From contig JAKBMG010000192.1 of assembly GCA_021831685.1 (NCBI GenBank), positions 1-38,639 of the forward strand: a DNA stretch of 38,639 bases, given 5' to 3'. The DNA comes from Bacteroidota bacterium. Its GTDB lineage: Bacteria; Bacteroidota; Ignavibacteria; Ignavibacteriales; Ignavibacteriaceae. A model generated the notes under the pieces. It had not been told where the DNA came from, ran no database searches, and saw only the letters and a program-made list of their open reading frames with translations. Positions 31,624 through 34,023 of the stretch are shown here, one piece after another. The translations under genes and the position numbers were made by a program. Positions within the stretch are counted from its first letter, which is position 1, and each line of letters opens with the position of its first letter.

Positions 31624-32022
31624 ATGAAAGATCTTTCGATCAAAAAACTTTACTATTCCATCAGCGAAGTAAGTAAAATTACTGAAGTTGAGCAATACGT
31701 TCTAAGATATTGGGAAACTGAATTTGAAGAATTAAGTCCCCAAAAAAATCGCGCTGGAAATAGAATCTATATTAATAAAGATATTCAGCTAATATTAAAA
31801 ATTAAAATATTATTACGAGACAAGAAATATACAATTGAAGGTGCGAAGAAAGTGCTAGGTAATTTCGAACCTGAAATTACGAATATTGCTCAAGAAATCA
31901 AGGTTGAACAGATCAAGAATACACATACTTTTGTTGAGAATAAAAAAGAAAAACTTAATTCTCCTAAAAAAGATCTCGAAGAAGTAAAGGAAGTTTTAGA
32001 ATACATACTTTCTAAATTATAA
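31624..32022 (+). CDS. MerR-family (HspR/MlrA-like) DNA-binding regulator
   Basis: Winged-helix MerR head at residues 10-78: YYSISEVSKITEVEQYVLRY, WETEFEELSPQKN, GNRIYINKDIQLILKIKILL, YTIEGAKKVL. The rest (about 50 residues) is a charged tail with a short coiled-coil-like end and no cysteines, so the effector is not metal or thiol based by appearance. This form, with WETEF and RxYxxxDI, is common in Bacteroidota and relatives, and its targets are unknown. The stop lies only six bases before the tRNA-Pro gene, so cotranscription with the tRNA is possible. Confidence 0.85.
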   Translation: MKDLSIKKLYYSISEVSKITEVEQYVLRYWETEFEELSPQKNRAGNRIYINKDIQLILKIKILLRDKKYTIEGAKKVLGNFEPEITNIAQEIKVEQIKNTHTFVENKKEKLNSPKKDLEEVKEVLEYILSKL

Positions 32023-32028
32023 TTTAAT

Positions 32029-32102
32029 CGGAACGTGGCGCAGCCCGGTAGCGTACCTGAATGGGGTTCAGGTGGTCGTGGGTTCAAATCCCACCGTTCC
32101 GA
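32029..32102 (+). tRNA. tRNA-Pro (anticodon GGG)
   Basis: Full cloverleaf: acceptor CGGAACG (32029-32035) with CGTTCCG (32095-32101), discriminator A at 32102, D-arm with AGCCCGGTAGC, anticodon stem CCTGA/TCAGG with loop ATGGGGT, anticodon GGG at 32063-32065, and T-arm GTGGG-TTCAAAT-CCCAC. The 3' CCA is not encoded (ACA follows). A run of seven T at about 32113 could end the transcript. Confidence 0.96.
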
Positions 32103-32535
32103 CAATTCTATCGTTTTTTTGAGCACTATCTTTTTACTTAGAAATACTGGACGTGTTTATTTAACAAATTCCTAAAGGACAGCATGATTAATATGCATTG
32201 TTCTATCCAACTAATTCTCCTATAACAATACAAAAAAAGAATAGCACCAATCAAACCTAATTTCTCAATACACTTTGAATGCACTCTGAATACACTGTGA
32301 ATGCACTTCTTATGCCTTCATCTTGTACTTATCAACCTTATTAACTTCTATCTTTTCCATAATCAAACTATAGAAATTCTCTCCTGATAGCTCAATCAGC
32401 AATTAATAATCAAATCATTCATCAATTTCTAATTGATACTGTACAAAACATCCCTTCCTATGTCAAATCGCACTTCAATTTTATAAAACGAAATTTATTC
32501 CGTAATTTTAACCTAACAATTTAAATAAAGAATAA
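32103..32535. other. Gene-free region between tRNA-Pro and purF, 433 bases
   Basis: A/T-rich sequence without a credible reading frame on either strand; the minus-strand frame crossing the tRNA is the well-known spurious tRNA antisense product. It contains the four-unit 11-bp repeat at 32267-32310 and must include the purF promoter, but I see no exact TAnnTTTG element and no riboswitch-like structure that I can defend. Confidence 0.65.
32267..32310. repeat. Four tandem 11-bp repeats
   Basis: Units AATACACTTTG, AATGCACTCTG, AATACACTGTG and AATGCACTTCT lie end to end, with consensus AATRCACTNTG. The R base alternates A, G, A, G. The period is close to one helical turn, so all units face the same side of the helix. 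It lies 226 bases before the purF ATG. Confidence 0.85.
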
Positions 32536-34023
32536 ATGAAATTACGACTTAATGCCGATAAACCTAAATGCCATTGTGGAATATTTGGAATTTTTGGTAC
32601 AGACGAAGCAGCAGTTAATACATATTATGGTCTTCACGCACTTCAGCATCGCGGACAGGAAGCAAGCGGCATTGTAACACGAGATTTTAACGGAAAAGGA
32701 AAACCAATTTTTAATATCCACAAAGGCGAGGGATTGGTATCCGAGGTATTTGCAGACTCCAAAATATTTAAAAATGTTTTAACCGGAAATGCCGCAATAG
32801 GTCATAATCGATATTCCACGACTGGTTCATCCGACTCAAGAAAAAATATTCAACCGTTTGTAGTTAATTATCGATTGGGAAATTTAGCAGTTGCTCATAA
32901 CGGCAACTTAACTAATGCTAAACAACTTCGAGAAGAGCTTGTTGATGAAGGAGCTATTTTTCAAACAACAAGCGACACAGAAGTAATTTTACATCTGATT
33001 GCTCGAAGCAGATTAAGTAATCAAGTAGATCAAATTAAAGAAGCTTTGTCAAGACTTGAAGGCGCATATTGTTTAACCATTTTAACCAATGATAAATTAA
33101 TTGCCGCAAGAGATCCATTTGGCTTTCGTCCTTTATCTATAGGAAAATTAAATGGAAATTTTATTGTTGCATCCGAGACATGCGCCTTTGATATTAATTC
33201 TGCAAAGTTTATAAGAGAAGTCAATCCCGGAGAAATAATTGTGATTGATGAAAATGTTAAAAATGTTGAGGATATCCAATCTTACAACATCTTTGACACA
33301 GTCTCTCCCCAAAAACATTGTATCTTTGAATATATCTATTTCTCGCGTCCCGATAGCTTTATTTTCGGGCACAACGTTGATAAAATGAGACGAAGGTTGG
33401 GAAAAATACTAGCAAGAAAATATCCGGTTGAAGATAAGGACGGTGAAAAGGTTATTGTAATTAGCGTTCCGGATAGCTCTAACACCACAGCAATTGGTTA
33501 CGAAACTCAATTGGAGAAAATGGGAATAAACGCTAAGCTTGAAATCGGGTTAATACGAAGCCATTATATTGGAAGAACCTTTATCCAGCCGGAGCAGGAG
33601 AAAAGGAAAAACAGTGTTAGGATAAAATTCAATACTGTAAAAGGAGTATTGGAAGGTAGAACCGTAGTACTTGTCGATGACTCTATTGTTAGGGGGACAA
33701 CATCTAAGCAACTTATTAGTCTGATAAGAGAAGCAAATCCAAAATCAATTCACTTAAGAATTTCTTCTGCTCCTATTATGCATCCGTGTTATTATGGAAT
33801 GGACTTCCCAAGCCGTGAAGAATTAGTAGCAAATCAAATGAACGGCAATATTAAAGCAATAGAAAAATATTTTAATGTAGATAGTCTGGAATATTTAACT
33901 ATAGATGAAATGCTTGAGGCTGTTTCGGAAGCAAATCCAAATAATTTTTGTACAGCTTGTTTCTCGGGAAATTATCCTACAGATGTCGATGTAAGCTTTA
34001 AGAAAGAGATCTATGAAGTTTAG
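32536..34023 (+). CDS. purF: Amidophosphoribosyltransferase, [4Fe-4S] type
   Basis: First committed step of purine synthesis: converts PRPP and glutamine to phosphoribosylamine. A short propeptide of 13 residues precedes C14 in KCHCGIFGIFG, the glutaminase nucleophile after processing as in Bacillus-type PurF. The Ntn domain continues with HRGQEASGI, GHNRYSTTGSS and VAHNGNLTN. The phosphoribosyltransferase PRPP loop is VVLVDDSIVRGTTSKQ. Cysteines for the Fe-S cluster are in KHCIFEYIYFSRPDS, MHPCYYGMDFPS and CTACFSG, placing it with the oxygen-sensitive Fe-S class. Length 495. It stands alone between two gene-poor regions, with no other pur gene nearby. A weak ribosome site precedes the ATG. 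Confidence 0.96.
   Translation: MKLRLNADKPKCHCGIFGIFGTDEAAVNTYYGLHALQHRGQEASGIVTRDFNGKGKPIFNIHKGEGLVSEVFADSKIFKNVLTGNAAIGHNRYSTTGSSDSRKNIQPFVVNYRLGNLAVAHNGNLTNAKQLREELVDEGAIFQTTSDTEVILHLIARSRLSNQVDQIKEALSRLEGAYCLTILTNDKLIAARDPFGFRPLSIGKLNGNFIVASETCAFDINSAKFIREVNPGEIIVIDENVKNVEDIQSYNIFDTVSPQKHCIFEYIYFSRPDSFIFGHNVDKMRRRLGKILARKYPVEDKDGEKVIVISVPDSSNTTAIGYETQLEKMGINAKLEIGLIRSHYIGRTFIQPEQEKRKNSVRIKFNTVKGVLEGRTVVLVDDSIVRGTTSKQLISLIREANPKSIHLRISSAPIMHPCYYGMDFPSREELVANQMNGNIKAIEKYFNVDSLEYLTIDEMLEAVSEANPNNFCTACFSGNYPTDVDVSFKKEIYEV

Follow-up and report, generated by a model that had tools for sequence, protein, structure and literature searches.

The tRNA-Pro to purF spacer

The window, i.e. the whole stretch of 38,639 nucleotides that was analysed, contains a row of 11-bp direct repeats in the 432-base gap between a tRNA-Pro gene and purF (Table 1). 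The repeats lie 225 bp upstream of purF and on the same strand, and their placement between these two genes, as given in an earlier note on this DNA, was confirmed. The array reads AATACACTTTG AATGCACTCTG AATACACTGTG AATGCACTTCT. All four units had been said to fit AATRCACTNTG. Units 1–3 do so exactly, but unit 4 ends in CT instead of TG and follows the consensus in its first nine bases only, so the array amounts to three units plus a partial one. The alternation of the variable purine (A, G, A, G) had been described correctly, and the suggestion that the array can be read as 22-bp repeats is borne out by Tandem Repeats Finder, which favours this reading (91% matches, score 76) over the 11-bp one (79%, score 55). 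Exact single units occur three times in the window, all within the array, while three more with one mismatch are scattered through it, a number within chance expectation. The array profile R1, which was built with the window array included, matches the window array at 5.1e-15.

Table 1. Coordinates of the array, its neighbours and the stretches that differ between relatives (positions in the window).
Feature	Position	Strand	Basis
tRNA-Pro (GGG), left neighbour	32029–32103	+	
Stretch without counterpart in G009 and G006 (element absent)	32107–32465	.	
Left arm of dispersed element, approximately −60 to −1 of other copies	32207–32266	+	homology
Stretch of ∼70 bp including the whole array, missing in G011	32256–32325	.	
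11-bp array, three exact AATRCACTNTG units and a broken fourth	32267–32310	+	sequence, Tandem Repeats Finder, profile R1
C-rich, G-poor tail of dispersed element	32311–32423	+	
purF, right neighbour, not specially linked to arrays	32536–34023	+	name from own sequence

The array and the tail together are 80–81% identical to the loci L030 and L051. The promoter half known from other copies (see below) is not recognisable in the purF copy. A search of the window against Rfam gave no match at gathering level apart from the tRNA, and no terminator-like hairpin was found in the region 31900–32600.

Four relatives (G005, G006, G008, and G009) have a short tRNA-Pro–purF spacer without the element; where the window has the longer of the two missing stretches, G009 and G006 hold about 100 and 60 other bases, respectively. 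The nearest relative, G011, has a purF that is 99% identical and flanks of the array site that are 98% identical, and the array is gone. The purF copy is best seen as a truncated, promoterless, decaying stray copy of a dispersed element.

Dispersal, anatomy and conservation of the element

Two adjacent units with up to three mismatches were matched 121 times (86 + 35) in the 4.5-Mb host genome (G000), compared with a single match (0 + 1) for the reversed control pattern. This is more than chance would give. We examined 34 arrays in G000 (the window and 33 fetched loci), the genome total being at least 34. All but one (33/34) overlap no ORF of at least 60 aa in a greedy ORF call, and their neighbours are diverse, e.g., purF, secA, and mutS (names from sequence reading). 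The genes to the right of the arrays are too diverse for a coherent regulon, which was rejected. Although 23 of 30 right-hand genes are co-directional with the array, tandem gene pairs show only 7 with and 4 against, and the excess therefore stems from divergent gene pairs. The window array thus belongs to an intergenic element present in many copies, and the 34 arrays resemble MITEs and BrickBuilt in being leader, repeat and tail without a gene. They are not placed as plasmid iterons are, at a replication origin beside a Rep gene: the 34 loci, on draft contigs of chromosome and plasmid taken together, have diverse neighbours. A viral origin was also rejected, since viral contigs gave no exact two-unit match. 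Isolated unit pairs in unrelated genomes (L064, L075, L082, and L085) were taken as chance. Several arrays in G000 and G011 (L021, L029, L038, L044, L104, L115, and others) lie ∼90–720 bases from contig ends, so further copies may be lost to assembly gaps.

The search for AATRCACTNTG arrays suggested in the earlier note thus found them in the rest of the genome, and it did so in relatives as well. A profile of arrays from G000, G001, G004, G008, G009, and G057 (alignment A1 holds 37 of 41 sequences, with four arrays omitted as too short or out of register) was run against 164 genomes. Arrays were found in 7 of the 13 genomes of the genus and in G057, which belongs to another family of the same order; eight other genomes gave weak matches only (E 0.002–0.01). 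Public genomes of relatives that carry a name, for instance BP9.bin83 and BP9.bin49, were assembled from metagenomes and are labelled ‘Bacteroidetes bacterium’.

Many copies have the array embedded in a longer homologous unit, which extends from roughly −195 to beyond +110 and is mostly 67–86% identical between copies. An intact copy consists of a promoter, a leader of ∼110 bp ending in an A-rich left arm, usually 3–4 units, and a tail that is C-rich and G-poor. The motif near the element start, TTG-N20-TAnnTTTG, has the form of a Bacteroidota-type promoter. Counted with at most one mismatch within 200 bp upstream of the array, it is present at 18/34 arrays in G000, 10/15 in G009, 7/18 in G011, 0/5 in G001, and 0/4 in G004. 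Matches on the opposite strand number 2, 0, 2, 0, and 0, respectively, and those further upstream 1 in G000 and 0 in G009. The arrays without a promoter at the expected place are 16/34 in G000, 5/15 in G009, 11/18 in G011, and all five and all four in G001 and G004. A promoter at a fixed distance is seen in about half of the copies. Most matches lie at −130 to −155 and are spaced in steps of about 11, because of where the array start is set. One 31-base type of the promoter (at most two mismatches) occurs 14 times in the genome, always at these elements (12 at counted arrays and two at degenerate copies).

The plus strand is depleted in G from −200 to +100 (6–14% in G000 and G009, compared with 15–21% in most bins further out). 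It is T-rich to the left and C-rich to the right of the array, most clearly in G000, G011, and G009. When the plus strand of 15 copies was folded, most behaved about like shuffled sequences (z −0.9 to +2.2 in six class-1 copies), the exceptions being L028 (−5.0) and L034 (−4.3). The opposite strand is more stably folded than shuffles in 8 of the 15 (z −2.2 to −5.7), with no folding pattern common to the 15 copies among those tested. Rfam gave no match up to E 1 for five loci, and a known structured RNA was therefore dropped. Base-pairing targets were rejected as well: each of the 67 copies of GAATRCACTCTGA in the genome belongs to an array or to a copy of the element, and an exact antisense target was therefore not seen. 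Terminal inverted repeats, the MITE criterion, reached a score of 10 in 0/34 copies (shuffled 3), and the ends of the element are diffuse in this family. Another small element, distinct from the arrays and bounded by GGGCACTTCTAAAAAC inverted ends, was observed in L158 (1384–1480), L044, L046, and L174. It adjoins a degenerate array element in L158, and appears to have interrupted the promoters of both L044 and L158.

Across all seven loci shared by G000 and G009, the array (7.9% mismatch) and the promoter core (7.4%) differ less than the promoter spacer (28.8%), the leader (21.5%), and the initial 100 bp of the tail (37.3%); p is 3e-20 for array vs. tail and 0.03 for core vs. spacer. Homogenisation within arrays could contribute to the low array figures. 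The contrast is weaker for the closer G011, for which 12 of 13 pairs were compared (L043/L104, where the break falls inside the element, was left out): mismatch is 5.6% in the array, where 25% of sites are gapped, 9.3% in the promoter core, 8.7% in the left arm, and 10.3% in the tail. The array loci of G000 also hold 13 of the 18 arrays in G011 and 7 of the 15 in G009, and at L032 the array lies between the same genes in G000, G011, and the more distant G004. The 15 array loci of G009 have the array in common and ten of them also the promoter motif; the intervening and outlying sequence has largely diverged. In a side case (L047 and L128), the array in the same neighbourhood of G000 and G009 has the opposite orientation to the genes.

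Unit number is exactly four in 14 of the 15 arrays in G009 and five in the last, but ranges from 2 to 17 in G000 and from 2 to 4 in G011. A single array (L022, 2980–3155) has grown to 16–17 units with a repeated variant unit, AATCCACTCTG, and is likely a recent slippage expansion.

Arrays upstream of DUF6266-type genes

A cross-species comparison of neighbours revealed a gene beside arrays that is common to G000, G001, G004, and G008 and encodes one shared protein. Of 14 genomes searched with this array-linked protein, 10 gave matches, 54 in total. The same or a similar unit forms arrays upstream of homologous genes in G000, G001, G004, G008, G057, and G011 (two units in the last). G009 has the gene with its own upstream array down to about one unit and 15 good arrays elsewhere, and G012:C95 shows no upstream array above threshold. 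Other homologues are preceded by other 11-bp units (ACAAGYCTCTG, AACTGCGCTCC, GAAAACGTCTT, AAWACCCTGTG, and more), and the A-rich left arm recurs before the GAAAACGTCTT arrays.

The array-linked family is homologous to DUF6266 (PF19781) according to HHalign (probability 97.2%, E 3.6e-11, 138 columns), with a similar order of predicted secondary structure. Unlike the members of DUF6266, its proteins stay below the Pfam cut-off, two of eight giving weak matches (E 0.019 and 0.038). β-hairpins, helices and a β-sandwich are predicted by AlphaFold2 for array-linked (pLDDT 85) and canonical DUF6266 (pLDDT 91) proteins alike. In the array-linked protein the sandwich is similar to FN3 domains, with middling scores, and no known DNA-binding domain was among the matches listed for its predicted fold. 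Canonical DUF6266 genes are present in 12 of the 198 genomes of a phylum sample. In a phage collection, tblastn gave no match for the array-linked protein or one canonical DUF6266 protein, and a plasmid search with another canonical protein gave none either.

With a lag-11 self-match of at least 17/22 as the criterion, arrays lie upstream in 13 of 29 genus-set regions and of 6 of 18 canonical DUF6266 genes. Together this is 19/47, compared with 2/76 for other ORFs (Fisher p 8e-8); these controls (≥100 aa) came from a mechanical ORF call, and some may be false. The remaining 16 genus-set regions (one only 221 bp long) and 12 canonical genes have no such array. The genus set covers 29 of the 54 matches (30 given loci less L249, which begins at a contig end), and the canonical set 18 of 19 loci, one at a contig end being omitted. 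Partial loci in the genus set, L255 and L267, score 16/22 and 15/22, below the threshold. Both positive controls (L254 and L266) sit in loci of array-bearing homologues, with which they may share the upstream region. Among periods of 7–20 bp, 11 bp stands out, the others reaching at most three per set. Period-10 self-matches were noted before the canonical genes L276, L284, and L274 (3/18, control 2/76; p 0.05), a signal too weak to claim. In the DUF6266 genes of genus g104 (L280, L286, L288, and L289) the array is followed by an inverted copy of itself or part of it, which would form a hairpin and is nearly perfect in L286.

The arrays have units specific to the paralogue behind them. On a tree of 27 proteins the unit types, as judged by eye, cluster: 13 changes are needed, whereas 200 shuffles averaged 18.9 and all needed more. 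Near-copies favour this clustering. Proteins of the two clades linked to the AATRYRC unit were found in 7/7 genus genomes with such arrays and 0/6 without. This co-occurrence has p 0.0006, rising to 0.005 with G008, whose sole array is the one beside the gene itself, not counted as dispersed; the clade grouping is post hoc, three of the six G007 matches are not on the tree, and four of the six array-less genomes are 79–99% complete drafts without any match. No mention of DUF6266 or PF19781 was found in the literature search, so the association with arrays is undescribed as far as our searches show.

A second dispersed 11-bp family was found in G000 with the ACAAG unit (37 matches, control 0), at 22 loci besides the gene's own array. 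At the 20 loci examined (L296–L315; contigs C55, C88, C90, C97, and others), each array counts three or four units and lies within an element ∼150 bp long. The arrays of this family read CCAGGCYTCTA-ACAAGCCTATG-ACAAGCCTCCA-CCAAGCCTATA. Terminal inverted repeats of ATTTTTGTCACAC are present in 13 of the 19 elements tested (shuffled 0/19), and TTG-N20-TAnnTTTG is not enriched (1/20, control 1). The unit matches that of the paralogue approximately, and this family may be tied to the DUF6266-type protein through unit similarity only.

Possible roles of the arrays

Plasmid iterons and the one-turn operators of OmpR/PhoB-type regulators are sites in head-to-tail order that precede the gene of the presumed binder and have a family-specific unit. 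The arrays before DUF6266-type genes share these features. Unlike such rows of sites, they also occur in tens of copies, beside housekeeping genes, and the presumed partner is a DUF6266-type protein rather than a Rep protein or a response regulator. The closest described element is BrickBuilt of Porphyromonas gingivalis, with 19 intergenic copies in one strain and promoter activity inside the element, as tested in E. coli (PMC4596501). Its host is likewise a member of the Bacteroidota, and it has the same order of leader, spacer-free tandem repeat and tail. It differs in a unit of 23 nt instead of 11 and in IS5-like inverted ends, which the first family here does not show above chance, and the parts of the source available report no protein family with matching arrays (PMC4596501). 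Among the matches listed for 11-bp repeats in Ignavibacteria and Bacteroidota or for small RNAs, only BrickBuilt was relevant. The closest multi-copy RNA family is FopS. The FopS/GibS sRNAs of Bacteroides are also multi-copy, have a single-stranded sequence in common, and start from a promoter of the Bacteroidota type (PMC11697453), a type of promoter seen at part of the arrays here. They end in a Rho-independent terminator, whereas nothing terminator-like was found in the window region; their consensus was deposited in Rfam according to the authors, whereas the elements here have no Rfam match; and no protein family with matching arrays is reported in the part of the source available (PMC11697453).

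The earlier note hinted at an operator of purF or an iteron array. The position of the array, upstream of purF on the same strand, is what one would expect, but the idea deserves next to no credence: the same array lies beside unrelated genes at 34 or more loci, the purF copy lacks the promoter half, and purF has no array before it in G005, G006, G008, and G009 and has lost it in G011. The purF copy probably does nothing for purF. Hardly more credible, and highly improbable in our judgement, is a plain minisatellite made by replication slippage. The variable copy number named in the earlier note as a sign of slippage is seen in G000 and G011, but the absence from all relatives it named is not, since relatives do carry arrays. 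Slippage changes copy number, yet as the main explanation it is contradicted by a unit that recurs at tens of loci and in further species, by the four units in nearly all G009 arrays, and by the conservation of the motif at shared loci and of the promoter distance.

Two other explanations take the dispersal into account. The elements could be selfish and MITE-like with a trapped minisatellite and no host function, and their link to DUF6266 would then be hitch-hiking. We regard this as unlikely, though a serious contender. Its anatomy, intergenic sites and tens of copies would fit, as would the absence of the element from the purF loci of relatives, the inverted ends of the second family, and the precedent of BrickBuilt with its promoters (PMC4596501). 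Against it, the first family shows no inverted ends above chance; it would also not account for an array and a promoter core far more conserved between species than their surroundings, and it leaves the arrays of other units upstream of DUF6266 genes unexplained. Alternatively, the copies could be paralogous genes for FopS-like sRNAs. Each would yield an unstructured transcript poor in G, with 11-nt repeats as binding sites for mRNAs or an RNA-binding protein. The fixed distance of the promoter where one is seen, the 31-base promoter type confined to these elements, the G-depleted and mostly unfolded strand that is presumably transcribed, and the 14 members of FopS with Bacteroidota-type promoters (PMC11697453) all speak for this. 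We nevertheless consider it rather improbable, as Rfam and the terminator search were negative, two of the 15 copies are strongly folded, the promoter of the second family is at control level, and a period of 11 bp common to unrelated arrays suits the DNA helix better than an RNA.

The explanation that we put forward, and for which the chances seem to us about even, is that one-turn arrays are read by a DUF6266-type protein that controls itself and acts on dispersed, orphan upstream modules. Beyond the fact that arrays precede these genes, each step is what we infer, including protein binding, DNA rather than RNA as the ligand, and any regulatory effect. An array would be a row of binding sites, each one helix turn long, to which the protein might bind cooperatively along one face of the DNA. 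That unrelated unit sequences share the one-turn period favours double-stranded DNA as the ligand. The proposal of the earlier note that proteins line up on the same helix face thereby gains partial support, the 11-bp period recurring before DUF6266-type genes despite differing units. Since an array of this kind is often found upstream of the DUF6266-type gene, the protein may control its own gene; the G009 gene without an array of its own and the array-less G012:C95 indicate that self-control would not be universal. The dispersed copies would be orphaned, non-autonomous upstream modules that have spread through intergenic regions, and the protein may act on them in trans. A wider and more tentative version, which we hold to be somewhat doubtful, is that DUF6266-type proteins are nucleic-acid-binding array readers throughout the phylum, every paralogue having a one-turn array upstream of its own gene, with units that diverge along with the protein and arrays that escape as dispersed non-autonomous elements and are still acted on.

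If true, a Pfam family of unknown function would gain a first role that can be tested, and a candidate ligand. Together with its evolving one-turn targets, such a small protein would also be a natural series for studying how sequence recognition changes. Repeats of this kind beside a housekeeping gene need not be its operator and can be stray copies.
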